Positions 13,877-20,004 of a stretch of DNA of 64,000 nt are shown here, one piece after another. Origin of the DNA: Acetoanaerobium noterae (GTDB taxonomy: Bacteria; Bacillota; Clostridia; Peptostreptococcales; Filifactoraceae); assembly GCF_900168025.1 (NCBI RefSeq), contig NZ_FUYN01000005.1, positions 62,001 through 126,000 of the forward strand, written 5' to 3'. A program made the translations under genes and the position numbers. The notes under the pieces were generated by a model. That model saw only the letters and a list, made by a program, of their open reading frames with translations, ran no database searches and was not told the origin of the DNA. Within the stretch, counting starts at the first letter, position 1; every line of letters begins with the position of its first letter.

Positions 13877-13905
13877 AAACTCCTTAATAGGAGTTTTATT
13901 TGTTA
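13877..13905 (+). terminator. Intrinsic terminator after recN
   Basis: AAACTCC (13877-13883) / GGAGTTT (13890-13896), loop TTAATA, followed by a T-rich tail. It marks the end of the nusB-recN run and the start of the envelope-linked cluster. Confidence 0.8.
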
Positions 13906-13982
13906 TTTTTTCTATGGAGTAATGTGATATAATAAGCTTTGAATGCAATTAATATATGCATAGTTTATTGGAGGCAATACAT

Positions 13983-15104
13983 ATGTTGTTTAAAGGAAAT
14001 ATAGCTAAAGATAAGAGAACTAAAGATTTAGCAAAAAGAATAAAGCCTGGTGAAATTGCTATAATTGACCACAAAGACTTAGATGAAATAGCGGCAAACT
14101 CGCTTGTAAATTCTAAAATTAAAGCAATAATAAATCAATCTCCTTCAATTAGCGGAAAATACCCTAACAAAGGACCTAGTATTCTTTTAGATAATGGAAT
14201 ATTTATTATAGATGTTGACTTTGATTTGATGGATAGGCTTGATGAGGGTGATTTAATCGAGATTGATGAAGATGGGAATATTTTTAAGGATGAAGAAAAG
14301 ATTTGTAACGGATTGATAATTGATAAAGAAAAAGTTGAGAATTTGATAAAATTTGCATATGAAAATATTTCAGAGGAGCTTGAAAAATTTATAGATAATA
14401 CTATAGAATATGCAAAAAAAGAAAAAGGAATGATATTAGGTGATGTAGTTATTCCACCACTCAAAACGAAGTTTAATAATAAGCATGTATTAATTGTAGT
14501 AAGAGGGCAAAATTACAAAGAGGATTTATCTACAATAAGATCTTACATAGACGAAGTTTCTCCGATATTAGTTGGAGTAGATGGTGGAGCAGATGCTCTA
14601 CTGGAGTTTGGGTTAATCCCTGACTTAGTTGTTGGTGATATGGATAGTATTAGTGATGAATGTTTAAAAAAGTCAAAGGAAATAGTTGTCCATGCTTATC
14701 CTGATGGAAGGGCTCCTGGTCTTTCTAGAATTGAAGAACTTGGATTAGAATCGGTTGTACTTCCTTCGCCTGGAACAAGTGAAGATATTGCAATGCTAAT
14801 AGCATATGAAAATAATGCAGAGCTGATTGTTGCTGTAGGTACCCATTCAAATATAATTGATTTCTTAGAAAAAGGCAGAAAGGGGATGTCAAGTACATTC
14901 CTAGTTAGACTTAAAATAGGATATAAATTAATTGACGCAAAAGGGGTTAGTTTGCTTTATAAGGGCAGTTTAAAACTAAAATACGTTTGGTGGCTTTTTA
15001 TAGCAGCTATGTTTCCAATATTGATTCTTATATATCTGTCTCAGCCTATGCAGCAGATAATAAAACTGTTGGAAATACAGCTTAAAATTTTATTGAATTT
15101 TTAA
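13983..15104 (+). CDS. steA: SteA family protein (TPK-like domain, putative cell-separation factor)
   Basis: A 373-residue protein of the SteA family, first described in Corynebacterium as part of a cell-separation pathway with the membrane partner SteB. An N-terminal domain (about 1-150) is followed by a thiamine-pyrophosphokinase-like domain (VGVDGGADALLEFGLIPD and VVGDMDSISDE) and a C-terminal hydrophobic segment (about 335-355) that should anchor it. The ATG at 13983 follows TTGGAGGC at 13968-13975; an ATG at 13956 lacks a ribosome site. The next gene is the SteB-like partner. Whether it binds thiamine-type or other nucleotides is unknown. Confidence 0.85.
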   Translation: MLFKGNIAKDKRTKDLAKRIKPGEIAIIDHKDLDEIAANSLVNSKIKAIINQSPSISGKYPNKGPSILLDNGIFIIDVDFDLMDRLDEGDLIEIDEDGNIFKDEEKICNGLIIDKEKVENLIKFAYENISEELEKFIDNTIEYAKKEKGMILGDVVIPPLKTKFNNKHVLIVVRGQNYKEDLSTIRSYIDEVSPILVGVDGGADALLEFGLIPDLVVGDMDSISDECLKKSKEIVVHAYPDGRAPGLSRIEELGLESVVLPSPGTSEDIAMLIAYENNAELIVAVGTHSNIIDFLEKGRKGMSSTFLVRLKIGYKLIDAKGVSLLYKGSLKLKYVWWLFIAAMFPILILIYLSQPMQQIIKLLEIQLKILLNF

Positions 15105-15117
15105 TGGAGGATAAAAT

Positions 15118-15978
15118 ATGTTTATCAATATAAAATATTTTATTGTAACTATTGCGGCAGTGTTTTTTTCACTAGGCATAGGTATAATGATAGGCTTTAA
15201 TCTCAATAATTCAGAAATATTTACTCAACAGCAAATAAAATTAGTAGATGATATGGATAAGAAACTTAATGAGCTTAGAGTAAAAAATGACGAAATGAAC
15301 AATCAATTAGTAGAAAAGGATAAATCTATAGAAATTTATAATGAGTTTGTAAATTCTTACTATGAAGATTTAATTAAAGATAGATTAGTTGATAAGAACC
15401 TTCTAATAATTCAAACAACAGGTGATTATTTCTTTTCTGATATATCACAGTGGGCAGCTATATCCGGAGCAAATATTCATACCTACCTCACTATTAATTC
15501 AAATAATTTTAATAGCTTAACTATAGCTCAATACCCAGATTTGTTCACTGAAGACAGTCTAGATACTGAGAAGCTTTTTAATTACATAATAAACTTAACT
15601 TCAGAGAACAACAGTTTAAAACTAGCTGAACTTGAACAGCTGGGGATACTAAAGATAGTTTCAACTTCGAATAATCAAGAACCATTCAATCAAGTTGTTT
15701 TACTAGGTGGAGAGCTTGAAGAAAGTAAAGAAAAAGTTGAAAAAGTAGATTTAGCTTTAGCAAGAAGCATTTCTTCTAAAAACATTCCAATAGTTTTTGC
15801 AGAAGAATCAAATGCAAATTATTCTTCGATTGAACAATTTAAAAATCTTAAAATTTCAACTGTTGATAATGTTGACCAAGCTATAGGAAGAATATCTTTA
15901 TCTGTGGTTTTATCAGGGGTAGATGGAAACTATGGTATAAAAGATACTGCAAGTAAACTGTTTCCAACATACAAATAA
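15118..15978 (+). CDS. SteB/MctB-like membrane protein (DUF3186, 'copper transporter' family)
   Basis: A 286-residue protein with one N-terminal membrane anchor (YFIVTIAAVFFSLGIGIMIG, about 7-26), a coiled coil (about 40-80) and an external domain ending SGVDGNYGIKDTASKLFP. This is the layout of the DUF3186 family, called MctB or copper transporter in mycobacteria and SteB in corynebacteria. It has no copper-binding cysteines or Met clusters that I can see, so a transporter role is doubtful. It is 13 bases after steA with its own GGAGG, implying that the pair forms a SteA-SteB complex at the membrane. Confidence 0.82.
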   Translation: MFINIKYFIVTIAAVFFSLGIGIMIGFNLNNSEIFTQQQIKLVDDMDKKLNELRVKNDEMNNQLVEKDKSIEIYNEFVNSYYEDLIKDRLVDKNLLIIQTTGDYFFSDISQWAAISGANIHTYLTINSNNFNSLTIAQYPDLFTEDSLDTEKLFNYIINLTSENNSLKLAELEQLGILKIVSTSNNQEPFNQVVLLGGELEESKEKVEKVDLALARSISSKNIPIVFAEESNANYSSIEQFKNLKISTVDNVDQAIGRISLSVVLSGVDGNYGIKDTASKLFPTYK

Positions 15979-15995
15979 ATAAAAAAGGTGAAATT

Positions 15996-16673
15996 ATGAA
16001 AATAGCAGTGTTAGTTCCAGCGTATAATGAGGAAAATCAAATTAGAAATACAATAAAAGGAATAATGAATATACCTTATGATATAGATCTATTTGTAATA
16101 GATGATGGTTCAACTGATAATACAGTAAAATATGTTCAAGAGTTTAAAAACGTTAACCTGCTTACTTATGGAGCAAATAAAGGAAAAGGGTTTGCTCTCA
16201 ATTTTGGACTAAAAAAAGTAATTGGCAATTATGATATAATTGGTTTTTTAGATGGAGATATTGGAGAAACATCATCTGAAGCTGAGAAGCTAATAAAACC
16301 CATTTTATACGACAAAATTGATGTGACTATTGCTCAGTTCCCATCTGCAAAGAAAAAAGGTGGATTTGGATTTGTAAAGAGATTGTCATTTTCAGGAATT
16401 AAATATTTTACTGGAAAAGAAATTTACAGTGGGTTATCTGGCCAAAGATTTTTTAAAAAAGAAGTGCTTGAAATTATAGAAGAGATTCCGTTTGGCTATG
16501 GAGTCGAAGTAGGAATGACTATTGATATTTTAAAGAAGGGCTTTACAATTAAAGAAGTTCCTGTTGTAATGACTCACAATGAAACAGGGAGAAATATTTC
16601 CGGTTTTATCCATAGATTTAAACAATTTTATCATATTATATTGATTCTTATAAAAAAAGCGCTTAAGAATTAA
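15996..16673 (+). CDS. Family 2 glycosyltransferase
   Basis: A 225-residue GT-A fold enzyme. The N-terminus KIAVLVPAYNEENQIRNTI, DDGSTDNT at about 37-44 and the DGDIGE (DxD) motif at about 84-89 mark a GT2 nucleotide-sugar transferase like dolichyl- or undecaprenyl-phosphate sugar synthases. No membrane anchor is obvious until a short hydrophobic C-terminus (HIILILIKKAL). The ribosome site is AAGGTG. Lying between the SteB-like gene and a MraY-like gene, it probably adds sugar to a polyprenyl carrier; donor and acceptor are unknown. Confidence 0.85.
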   Translation: MKIAVLVPAYNEENQIRNTIKGIMNIPYDIDLFVIDDGSTDNTVKYVQEFKNVNLLTYGANKGKGFALNFGLKKVIGNYDIIGFLDGDIGETSSEAEKLIKPILYDKIDVTIAQFPSAKKKGGFGFVKRLSFSGIKYFTGKEIYSGLSGQRFFKKEVLEIIEEIPFGYGVEVGMTIDILKKGFTIKEVPVVMTHNETGRNISGFIHRFKQFYHIILILIKKALKN

Positions 16674-16700
16674 TTAAAGAGGGTTTATAAGGAGAGAACT

Positions 16701-17504
16701 ATGCAATACGCTATTATAGGATTTGTTATAGCAGTGATGACAGGAAAGTTTTTTCTTAGTCAAATTTATAACATACTATTTGATTCAAATATGCTCCAAG
16801 AAAATTTCAAGGGAGAAAAAATACCCATTGGAATGGGACTTTTCTTTATACCATCGTTAATTATTTTTTCTATGTTTTTTCAATTATATTATAACGATAC
16901 TGGCATAAATCTGATTTTGGTAGGATGTATATTGATGGCTTTTGTAGGATATTTAGATGATAGTACAGTAGATAAATCCAACAAAGGATTAAAGGGACAT
17001 ATAAAGCAGCTCTTTAAAAATAAAGTTACTACAGGGATGCTGAAAGCTTTGGCAGGATTTGGCATTTCATTATATATATCTCTTAGCATTTCCAATAGCC
17101 TACAAGAGATTATTATAAATACTTTACTAATTTCATTATTTACTAATTTTATGAATTTGTGGGATTTGAGGCCAGGCAGAGCTACTAAAGTGTTTATATT
17201 AATTGCAATTATTGGATTCTTTTTATCTATATCTTATACGCAGTACTATTTTGGATTATTTATATGTTTAAGTCTTATATATATAAAAGGAGATTTAACT
17301 GCAAAGTATATGCTTGGAGATACGGGCTCAAATTTACTTGGTATATTTTTAGGAATATGCTTTGCAATTGATTTAGGATTTTATTATAAAATTGCTCTTG
17401 TAGTCTTCTTTATAGTTATGCATATATTCGCAGAGAAAGTGTCCTTTTCAAAAATAATTGCAAAAAACAAATTATTAAACAAAATTGATATGATGGGAAG
17501 ATAG
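16701..17504 (+). CDS. MraY/WecA-like polyprenyl-phosphate glycosyl-1-phosphate transferase homologue
   Basis: A 267-residue polytopic membrane protein with about eight hydrophobic segments. Superfamily landmarks are present: YLDDSTVDKSNKGLKGH (the DD motif), NLWDLRPGRA in place of the usual NxxDGxDGL loop, LGDTGSNLLG and the HIFAEK C-terminal loop. It is shorter than MraY or TagO (about 320-360). These motifs suggest transfer of a sugar-phosphate or similar group to a polyprenyl phosphate, or a descendant that has lost this activity. It is co-transcribed with the GT2 and SteA/SteB-like genes. Confidence 0.75.
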   Translation: MQYAIIGFVIAVMTGKFFLSQIYNILFDSNMLQENFKGEKIPIGMGLFFIPSLIIFSMFFQLYYNDTGINLILVGCILMAFVGYLDDSTVDKSNKGLKGHIKQLFKNKVTTGMLKALAGFGISLYISLSISNSLQEIIINTLLISLFTNFMNLWDLRPGRATKVFILIAIIGFFLSISYTQYYFGLFICLSLIYIKGDLTAKYMLGDTGSNLLGIFLGICFAIDLGFYYKIALVVFFIVMHIFAEKVSFSKIIAKNKLLNKIDMMGR

Positions 17505-17506
17505 AA

Positions 17507-18625
17507 ATGAATAGTATATCATGGAACGAAGGTATTGTAGTAGATATAATTAAATCATACGAGGATTATCAAGAAATAAATGTAAAAACAGATTTTGGAG
17601 TGAGAAAAGCTATTAATTATACTATGTTTACGGGAATTGTAAATATAGGAGATCAGATAACAGTAAATACTACAGCGGTAGAACTAAGTCTAGGTACTGG
17701 AGGCTATGATTTTGTAGTGTTTAATCATTCTCTCAAAAACAAAGCTTTAGACAAAGCTCCTGGGCACATAATGAAGCTTAGATACACTCCATATCAATTT
17801 AAAACCTTGTCTGTTGAAGAACAAGATAGCGATTATCATTTAGAAGTAGATAAATTTAAAACGCTAAATAAATTTCCAGTTGTCGTTGGAACGCTTCACA
17901 GTCAAGTATCAGTTTTCTTTGAATCTTATAAACATTTATCAAATAAGGATACCACAGCAGTGTATATAATGACTGATGGAGCAGCATTACCTATCCAGCT
18001 AAGTAATAATATAAGAGTACTAAAGTCTGAAAAGATAATTGACTATACGGTTACAGTTGGTAATGCATTTGGAGGAGATTATGAAGCTGTTAATATATAT
18101 TCTGGGATAGTATTTGCATATGAAGTTTTAAAAGCAGATATAATTATGATATGTATGGGACCAGGGATTGTTGGTACAGGAACAAAATATGGCTTTTCTG
18201 GTATTGAGCAAGGTTATATTTTAGATGCAATAGAGAAGCTTGGAGGTACACCTGTTGCTTTGCCTAGAATTAGTTTTTCAGATTCTAGAGATAGACACAA
18301 AGGACTTAGCCATCATAGTATTACAATTTTAAAAGATATTGTAAATGCCCACTGCATCATACCGTACAGTATTACTGATTTAGATAAAGACAGCTTTATA
18401 AATAATCAATTTGCAGACAATGGGTTAGATTTAAAACATACTATTATAAATACTAAAGGCTATAACTACAATGAAATTGTTAGTGAATTTATAGTTAAAC
18501 CAAAATCGATGGGTAGGACTTATACGGATGAACCTTATCTATTTGATGCTTGTATATCTGCATCAGAGTTTGTCTTAGGAGGAGAAGCTAATGCAAAGTA
18601 TGCCAGAGAAAACTGTCTCGACTAA
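17507..18625 (+). CDS. DUF3866 family protein
   Basis: A 372-residue protein starting two bases after the MraY-like gene. It matches my recollection of DUF3866: an N-terminal beta-rich region (GIVVDIIKSYEDYQEINVK), GPGIVGTGTKYGFSGIEQG and RISFSDSRDRHKGLSHHS, the last with histidine and aspartate residues that could form a metal or phosphate site. No signal peptide or membrane segment is seen. The family is known from actinobacteria and some clostridia near recN/steA loci. No biochemical function is known to me. Confidence 0.7.
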   Translation: MNSISWNEGIVVDIIKSYEDYQEINVKTDFGVRKAINYTMFTGIVNIGDQITVNTTAVELSLGTGGYDFVVFNHSLKNKALDKAPGHIMKLRYTPYQFKTLSVEEQDSDYHLEVDKFKTLNKFPVVVGTLHSQVSVFFESYKHLSNKDTTAVYIMTDGAALPIQLSNNIRVLKSEKIIDYTVTVGNAFGGDYEAVNIYSGIVFAYEVLKADIIMICMGPGIVGTGTKYGFSGIEQGYILDAIEKLGGTPVALPRISFSDSRDRHKGLSHHSITILKDIVNAHCIIPYSITDLDKDSFINNQFADNGLDLKHTIINTKGYNYNEIVSEFIVKPKSMGRTYTDEPYLFDACISASEFVLGGEANAKYARENCLD

Positions 18626-19136
18626 AGATATTTATACTGGAAAGGTAATTACAGTTAAAGTGTCTACAGTTGAAATTAAGGATCAAAAATATTCTCAGCG
18701 AGAAATAGTTACCCATCCTGGGGGAGCTTGTGTTGTTGCAATTAATGAATCTAAAAAAATAATATTGGTAAGGCAGTTTAGGAAACCAATTGAAAATTAT
18801 ACAATTGAACTTCCAGCTGGGAAGCTAGAAAGTAATGAAGATCCGAAAAATTGTATAAAAAGAGAACTTCATGAAGAAACAGGGTATATATCACATGACA
18901 TTAAATTCATACAATCTTTTTATACTTCACCAGGGTTTTCTACAGAGAGAATTTATATTTATTTTGCTAAGGTAAAAGAAAAGAATGAGCCAAATCCTGA
19001 AGATGATGAAATGATTGATGTGCTAGAAGTATCCTTAAATGAAGCTCTAGATATGATTAAAAGAAATGAAATTTCAGATGCTAAAACCATTATTGGAATA
19101 AACTGGTTAAAGGATAATCAAAATGAGCTTCTCTAA
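18591..19136 (+). CDS. Nudix hydrolase, ADP-ribose pyrophosphatase type
   Basis: A 181-residue NudF-like enzyme expected to split ADP-ribose to AMP and ribose 5-phosphate. The Nudix box is complete: G-KLESN-E-...-RELHEETGY (G-x5-E-x7-REUxEExGU). The preceding VRQFRKPIENYTIELPAG segment is typical of ADP-ribose-type members. ATG 18591 lies six bases after AGGAGGAG (18578-18585) and overlaps DUF3866 by 35 bases. It overlaps the XerD-like gene by 14 bases. Confidence 0.92.
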   Translation: MQSMPEKTVSTKDIYTGKVITVKVSTVEIKDQKYSQREIVTHPGGACVVAINESKKIILVRQFRKPIENYTIELPAGKLESNEDPKNCIKRELHEETGYISHDIKFIQSFYTSPGFSTERIYIYFAKVKEKNEPNPEDDEMIDVLEVSLNEALDMIKRNEISDAKTIIGINWLKDNQNELL

Positions 19137-20004
19137 TATTAATCAGCTGCTAGATGAGTACTATTTTTATCTATCTAAACAAAATATTAAGAAAAACACT
19201 GTTTTAGCTTACTATTTTGATTTTAAAAATTATTTAGATATATCAGAGGCTGTGGAGCTTGATGAGCTATTTAAGGTTGACTATCTAAGAGAATTTATTA
19301 ATCAATCCTCAATTAGTGAATCGACTAAAAAAAGAAGATTAGCTTCAATAAAAAAAGCATATTTTTATTTAACTCAAAATAGTCTTATAGCCAAAGATAT
19401 AAAGTTTTTTTCAAACTTAAAATCTATTAAAATTGAAAAAAAAAGCATATTATCTAGTGATAACATACTTTCGGAAGAAGAAATTGATATCCTACTCAAT
19501 ACGCCTAATGATTCTATTTCGCTTAGAGATAAGGCTATTATTGAAACAATTTACACATTAGGATTTAGAACATCTGAAATAGTAGAACTGAAACTGAATG
19601 ATATTGATTTGAATCTTAACCTTATTAGTATTTATAGAAATTCAATAAAAAAAACATTTTCTCTCGATAATGATATTAACTCATCATTAATCAACTATTT
19701 GAACTATGAAAGATTAAAAATTAATTTAGAGACAGATTATTTGTTTTTAAATAAAAATAAAGAAAAGCTATCAAGGCAGAGCGTATGGAAAATAATTGCA
19801 AAGTATGCAGAAAATCAAAATATTGAAACAAAAGTAAATCCTAAAATACTTAGGAAATCTTTTGCACTACATTTGATAAAAAATGGTGTTTCAATAAATA
19901 CTGTTTCTGAAATTTTTGGTATTGATAATTTAAACTTTTTATTAAGAGAAGCTGATAATAAACAATCTTATATTGAAATAAAGGATTTTTTTAAAAATAA
20001 ATAA
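19123..20004 (+). CDS. XerD-like tyrosine recombinase family protein with degenerate active site
   Basis: A 293-residue protein with the two-domain plan of XerC/XerD: an N-terminal SAM-like DNA-binding domain (about 1-100) and a catalytic-type domain (115-290). Arg I is kept (GFRTSEI, R149) and a C-terminal tyrosine exists (Y283). The central HxxRH box reads KILRK (K241, R244, K245) and the LGH box reads FGI (G266-I267), so two histidines are lost. It is thus probably unable to recombine dif normally. It may be a structural DNA-binding paralogue, with the real XerC/XerD elsewhere. The gene overlaps the Nudix gene by 14 bases. Confidence 0.8.
   Translation: MSFSNINQLLDEYYFYLSKQNIKKNTVLAYYFDFKNYLDISEAVELDELFKVDYLREFINQSSISESTKKRRLASIKKAYFYLTQNSLIAKDIKFFSNLKSIKIEKKSILSSDNILSEEEIDILLNTPNDSISLRDKAIIETIYTLGFRTSEIVELKLNDIDLNLNLISIYRNSIKKTFSLDNDINSSLINYLNYERLKINLETDYLFLNKNKEKLSRQSVWKIIAKYAENQNIETKVNPKILRKSFALHLIKNGVSINTVSEIFGIDNLNFLLREADNKQSYIEIKDFFKNK

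Follow-up and report, generated by a model that had tools for sequence, protein, structure and literature searches.

A gene cluster built around steA and steB was analyzed in Acetoanaerobium noterae, in a stretch of 64,000 nucleotides (assembly GCF_900168025.1, contig NZ_FUYN01000005.1, positions 62,001 to 126,000) called the window here. Seven genes, all on the plus strand, occupy window positions 13983-20004 and encode SteA, SteB, GT2, GT4, DUF3866, Nudix and XerD-like proteins, GT4 being shorthand, after Pfam's Glycos_transf_4, for an MraY-like protein of the PNPT superfamily. The core considered below is SteA-SteB-GT2-GT4 (13983-17504). The features of the locus are:

13877-13896, plus strand: terminator-like hairpin at the boundary between recN and the operon (the region overall is barely above shuffled sequences, with 7 hairpins found against 5.0 expected)
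13983-15104, plus strand: steA, cytoplasmic domain like those of thiamine pyrophosphokinase (TPK) and MptE, C-terminal transmembrane helix and amphipathic helix; pocket motif intact
15118-15978, plus strand: steB (MctB-like), N-terminal membrane anchor, coiled coil and extracytoplasmic domain
15996-16673, plus strand: GT2, short GT-A glycosyltransferase without transmembrane helices
16701-17504, plus strand: GT4, enzyme of the PNPT superfamily (MraY/WecA/DPAGT1 fold)
17507-18625, plus strand: DUF3866 (PF12982, 426 bits), a frequent, not constant neighbour
18591-19136, plus strand: Nudix hydrolase of the ADP-ribose/YffH type (PF00293; TIGR00052 above cut-off), context gene
19123-20004, plus strand: XerD-like degenerate tyrosine recombinase (PF00589; below the XerD equivalog cut-off), context gene

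The seven packed genes described in the initial annotation were all confirmed on the plus strand at the places given there. The gaps between them are, in order, 13, 17, 27, 2, -35 and -14 bp; overlaps therefore exist, as had been stated, but in two pairs rather than several. The steA start was placed at 13983 because a good ribosome-binding site (TTGGAGGC) lies upstream of it, whereas the alternative open reading frame start at 13956 has none. Upstream of steA the window carries dxs-tlyA-argR-recN. The Mycobacterium order tlyA-nadK-recN-steA-steB-pyrG-nudix-xerD, cited in the annotation as the backbone of this region, was seen in loci L215-L219, whereas the window has argR in place of nadK and lacks pyrG. 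The closest named relative, judged by SteA, is Acetoanaerobium pronyense (73%).

Window SteA scored 522 bits against NF040608 (cut-off 150), and its C-terminal membrane helix and periplasmic helix scored 53 bits against PF12555 (cut-off 26.4). The SteA profile matched the Mycobacterium tuberculosis SteA structure 9hmy (E 1e-99) and the solved Corynebacterium glutamicum SteA, and matched 6-hydroxymethylpterin and thiamine pyrophosphokinases weakly. The window protein was below the cut-offs of the kinase families TIGR01378 (41 against 76.4 bits) and MptE-like (19.9 against 34.6 bits), and the short TPK domain PF04263 was above its own (37.3 against 30.7 bits). The TPK/MptE motif GDxDS, in the form GDMDS, and an acidic SED are near-invariant in the SteA of genomes carrying GT4 (GT4+). 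The C. glutamicum protein has a TPK-like pocket and is stabilised by UDP or GDP (PMC12977500). The adjacent SteB of the window has the MctB fold expected of a SteAB system, with 120 bits against PF11382 and matches to the SteB structures 9m9z, 9hle and 8au6 (E 3e-16 to 1e-14).

A comparison of the steA neighbourhood covered named genomes with 28 true SteA loci. Nearly all of these have the order steA-steB-GT2-GT4, in Clostridia, in one metagenome-assembled genome each of Armatimonadetes and Actinomycetota, and in others, a recurrence far beyond chance. The four genes were kept where the flanks all differ (L013, L017-L019, L021 and L025). In two actinobacterial loci (L022 and L026) GT4 was kept and GT2 was not in place; in the L026 genome a GT2 orthologue was located at another site. 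DUF3866, Nudix and XerD were often absent beside the core, and the XerD-like protein of the window lacks the catalytic His and Tyr residues, so that the earlier idea of seven genes acting as one system was not upheld.

Each of the four proteins was also searched separately in 249 genomes, at least 90% complete, of the window's phylum (Bacillota). SteA was found in 161, SteB in 160, GT2 in 158 and GT4 in 160; all four were present in 155 genomes, none in 86 and only some in 8. Among these eight, three have contigs ending beside the gene, one is a single weak SteB match, two (G135 and G159) gave no GT2 at E 1e-45, a threshold that may be too strict, and in two SteB was looked for and not found. 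Loss of SteB in many Bacillota, suggested by a 700-bp gap between SteA and GT4, was rejected, as SteB was found elsewhere in the same genomes. SteB is unlinked from SteA in more than 12 genomes and GT2 in one family, with all four proteins still present. The Fisher value for co-occurrence, 7e-64, is not usable as a probability because the genomes share ancestry; that all four persist once unlinked carries more weight. The annotation had named failure of GT2 and the MraY-like gene to stay near SteA in other genomes as the outcome that would tell against the cluster. The two genes are kept there, and they co-occur with SteA where unlinked, and this objection therefore fails.

Since the four genes are inherited and lost together, SteA, SteB, GT2 and GT4 almost certainly form one functional unit, and the functional link of SteAB with GT2/GT4 is strong. 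The core does sit among housekeeping genes (dxs, tlyA, argR, recN and xerD) in many genomes, and SteAB functions without GT2/GT4 in Mycobacteriales (PMC12977500), as would be expected of a conserved region, co-transcribed for reasons of expression, in which cell splitting by SteAB has nothing to do with the envelope work of the two transferases. Such a mere neighbourhood is quite unlikely, because the four co-occur genome-wide even after genes have moved, because they stay together while the flanks vary in the loci listed above, and because invariant SteA columns decayed upon loss of GT4 on two occasions, as described below.

The moved steB genes occupy a conserved site (L306-L313, L317-L319 and L325) in the string coaE-SLT lytic transglycosylase-nicotinate-type phosphoribosyltransferase-SBP-steB, the peptide-binding protein (SBP) gene being usually, not always, present upstream. 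The SLT lytic transglycosylase is a candidate for the SteB partner in Bacillota. Five loci with a moved GT2 gene were read, and in four of them (L321-L324) it adjoins a gene for an L,D-transpeptidase of the YkuD type that also has a peptidoglycan-binding domain.

Among 197 Actinomycetota genomes, SteA was found in 87 and a strong GT4 in 81, all within the SteA+ set (0 of the 110 others). Five of the six SteA-only genomes have the Mycobacteriales-type locus tlyA-nadK-recN-steA-steB-pyrG-nudix-xerD, and in the sixth (G403) the contig stops inside the cluster, ahead of the expected GT4 position. GT2 was detected in 60 of the 197 genomes, every one SteA+. Many loci of this phylum also encode MurJ (PF03023, 256 bits in L226) together with a GT-B glycosyltransferase and sometimes a PMT_2 protein. 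MurJ flips lipid-linked precursors, and the gene content of the loci bearing MurJ and GT-B is that of a lipid-linked glycan pathway.

A secreted or membrane protein of about 730-770 amino acids is encoded between or beside SteAB and GT4 in many of these loci (such as L226:8764-10956, L199:6598-8880 and L225:6182-8500). It has a signal peptide, a first half like the alkaline phosphatase superfamily and a polytopic second half; a Pfam search gave no match, and the only similarity, to phosphoglycerate mutase/sulfatase-type enzymes, was sub-threshold. In two large SteA-less actinobacterial genomes (L230 and L231) the gene of a divergent GT4 follows recN directly and has a GT-B gene as its neighbour. 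The GT4 loop reads NLVDVWPGRA and NLVDVGPGVA, respectively, and N149 and K163 are lost in both.

The effect of GT4 loss on SteA was analyzed using 22 columns of the pocket region (RYDDGDDMDSHYPSEDHKRGMG), which were picked after the alignment had been viewed. Window SteA matches all 22, and they are identical in 177 of 205 GT4+ SteA sequences from both phyla. The SteA of 25 GT4-less genomes showed 8-19 changes in 21 cases and 2-3 in four. In the SteA tree, absence of GT4 corresponds to two changes, both nested in GT4+ branches: a Mycobacteriales clade of 24 rows, within which the four least-changed sequences form a separate branch, and L272, alone amid intact sisters. A choice-free set comprised every column with 98% or higher conservation among the GT4+ rows, 51 in total. 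Of these, L272 lost 10, its GT4+ sisters none, and GT4+ SteA of equal isolation (47-56% identity to the nearest sequence) 0-3. The ten columns lost by L272 are those lost in the Mycobacteriales clade (mean retention 0.40 against 0.80, p 3e-4). The GT4-less L261 and L263 were labelled GT4+ in parts of the pocket counts, and L261 also in the 51-column tests, which makes these contrasts conservative. Within one order, SteA scored at least 513 bits with GT4 and lower without it, G489 being the single exception. The parallel column loss in two separate GT4 losses indicates, as judged from sequence, that the conserved surface of SteA is under selection dependent on the glycan enzymes. The SteA of M. 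tuberculosis or C. glutamicum has a decayed pocket and may therefore mislead a ligand search. A decay confined to the TPK-like domain was considered but not supported (domain comparison, p 0.49).

PNPT enzymes load polyprenyl phosphate. The window GT4 scored 25.7 bits against PF00953, under the 27-bit cut-off. A profile of 23 GT4 sequences had MraY as its sole sequence match in the PDB (best E 2e-8), and the AlphaFold model (pLDDT 92) matched about 30 chains of MraY and human DPAGT1 in Foldseek (E 3e-6, TM-score by query 0.55-0.68). D86, D87 and D207 are present in 100% of 176 GT4 sequences and align with D117, D118 and D265 of AaMraY, which are its catalytic and Mg-binding aspartates (PMC6606608); N152, D155, P158, G159 and R160 are conserved in 99-100% of the same set. 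GT4 is thus like the PNPT superfamily (MraY, WecA/TagO and DPAGT1) in fold, in the DD and GDxGS aspartates and in membrane topology.

On the other hand, GT4 carries a near-invariant loop NxxNLxDLRPGRA in place of NxxNxTDGLDGL, that is, DLRPGR for the DGLDGL of these enzymes. The uridine pocket of MraY is made of G194-L195-D196 and F262 (PMC6606608), and GT4 has L-R-P at the first three positions and Leu or Met, before GD, in place of F262. The HHH motif of MraY loop E was found in the C-terminal part of none of the 23 sequences, and no transmembrane helix equivalent to TM10 was predicted. GT4 is, on these sequence grounds, not a member of MraY proper, and its sequences form a group of their own within the superfamily, under the Pfam cut-off. 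With the aspartate triad kept throughout, the uridine pocket changed and HHH absent, GT4 is likely to have kept PNPT activity while binding its donor at an altered site. The rebuilt nucleobase loop, the replacement of F262 by Leu or Met and the lack of a predicted TM10 equivalent would also suit an altered PNPT relative that serves as a membrane sensor or scaffold, reading a polyprenyl-phosphate sugar made by GT2, rather than as a transferase. Such a role is very doubtful, since the conservation of D86, D87, D207, N152 and D155 across the 176 sequences is that expected of an active enzyme.

The window GT2 scored 83 bits against PF00535 and has a GT-A fold with a DxD motif, D86/D88 being invariant in the alignment together with SGQR and HRxxQ. 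The closest solved folds are GpgS, DPM synthase, ArnC and GtrB. The fold and DxD are common to the polyprenyl-phosphate GT2 enzymes (DPM1, AglJ, ArnC, GtrB and PpgS), but the window protein has only 225 amino acids and no transmembrane helices, and it missed every subfamily cut-off. Polyprenyl-linked chemistry is the probable task of GT2 and GT4; the fold and catalytic triad of GT4 support the polyprenyl-linked sugar step that the two enzymes had suggested in the initial annotation.

SteAB with RipA/RipC is the cell-separation system of Mycobacteriales, and its loss leads to chaining (PMC6705760, PMC12977500). The window shares with it the SteA and SteB families, their order and their topology. 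In Mycobacteriales, however, the locus lacks GT2/GT4, the genome lacks GT4, the SteA pocket is degenerate and the hydrolase partner is known (RipA/RipC). Mycobacteriales, where SteAB was characterised, have lost GT2/GT4. In M. tuberculosis, SteB positions RipA, and binding of SteB to the coiled coil of an NlpC/P60 hydrolase at the septum is one of the marks of a SteAB system.

In Clostridioides difficile R20291 the genes CDR20291_1053-1057 are essential by Tn-seq, and their knock-down by CRISPRi produces chaining, short, swollen, phase-bright cells (PMC12548448). They are annotated as a pyrophosphokinase (373 amino acids), an exported protein (291), a GT2 (230), a glycosyltransferase (274) and DUF3866 (355), and are classed as of unknown function, with SteA or SteAB nowhere named (PMC12548448). 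Because the order, the annotations and the lengths match those of Tepidibacter L003 (373, 288, 226, 267 and 355 amino acids), we infer that this is the same operon as the window module. Lack of an envelope phenotype was the second outcome named in the annotation as telling against the cluster; given the chaining and swelling, this objection fails too, provided that the operons are the same. Defects in the PS-II polymer genes of C. difficile also give chains of short, swollen cells, and depletion of undecaprenyl phosphate has been openly discussed for PS-II. The core could accordingly be an ordinary secondary-polymer pathway in which chaining and swelling come solely from trapped undecaprenyl phosphate while SteAB senses envelope stress. 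We regard this as unlikely, as it explains neither why SteA, and not general teichoic-acid genes, is the exclusive partner nor the coupled decay of SteA; moreover, the PS-II genes of C. difficile are in a separate cluster.

On balance we favour a model in which a polyprenyl-linked sugar path feeds or signals through SteA to wall splitting controlled by SteB. Loading undecaprenyl phosphate with a sugar phosphate at the cytoplasmic face would be the task of GT4, which probably recognises its activated donor differently from MraY, and GT2 would add a sugar or make a polyprenyl-phosphate sugar. The later steps would fall, in many Actinomycetota, to a GT-B enzyme and a flippase of the MurJ type. 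SteA, anchored beside GT2/GT4, may use or sense a nucleotide or sugar metabolite of the pathway in its TPK-like pocket, and its membrane helix may relay this state to SteB. By positioning a peptidoglycan hydrolase on the outer side, SteB would make septum splitting follow sugar supply or placement. Mycobacteriales would have lost the glycan enzymes and kept SteAB, its pocket decayed, to regulate a hydrolase. A bolder version is tentative: the ancestral SteA may have been an enzyme with catalytic activity of its own, anchored in the membrane and akin to a diphosphokinase or a glycosyltransferase. It would have served a conserved and essential pathway for a lipid-linked glycan, the first transferase of which does not recognise uridine as MraY does, and the hydrolase-regulating SteAB of Mycobacteriales would be a remnant after pathway loss.

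Several points weigh against the coupling model. With its nucleobase loop rebuilt, GT4 may no longer be a transferase or may act on another substrate. The genomes compared are related, which makes the Fisher p values far too small, and GT2 was not found in about a quarter of the GT4+ Actinomycetota. The decay of Mycobacteriales SteA extends to N-terminal columns. Orthology of the C. difficile operon was deduced from order, lengths and annotation, and CRISPRi in that species is polar.

SteAB, PNPT and GT2 are themselves known kinds. No paper joining SteA with these glycosyltransferases was found in open-access text, nor any description there of the obligate SteAB-GT2/GT4 association, the altered PNPT donor loop or the loss-linked decay of SteA. 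The initial annotation had called the system undescribed. This is not so for the occurrence of SteAB in Clostridia, noted in PMC12977500, or for the essentiality of the C. difficile operon (PMC12548448), whereas no description was found of a connection between the two or of what GT2/GT4 do. The finding joins the question of the SteA ligand, the function of an essential C. difficile cluster and an unassigned PNPT group whose donor pocket is rebuilt; if true, it would point to an envelope sugar pathway that is widely conserved in Gram-positive bacteria, so far undescribed and coupled to cell-separation control.

SteAB has been noted beside Spo0A in Clostridia, and a role in sporulation suggested (PMC12977500). 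Spo0A was not found in the window's genome, which is 99.9% complete (the Bacillus subtilis positive control was detected). In Peptostreptococcus loci recN is directly followed by steA, and the module is kept in loci lacking an adjacent Spo0A. A sporulation role is therefore not required and was ruled out as the main role of SteAB.

Among the context genes, the DUF3866 model (pLDDT 89) has an IF1-like OB domain at its N-terminus and a loose P-loop-like match, and gave no convincing whole-chain match; its alpha/beta domain carries an invariant RHxGxSHH. The window XerD-like protein lacks both His and the nucleophilic Tyr of the catalytic R-H-R-H-Y set and is a XerD copy decaying in place. In the Tepidibacter loci L002-L005 the catalytic His positions are altered and the Tyr is kept, and more distant relatives are intact.

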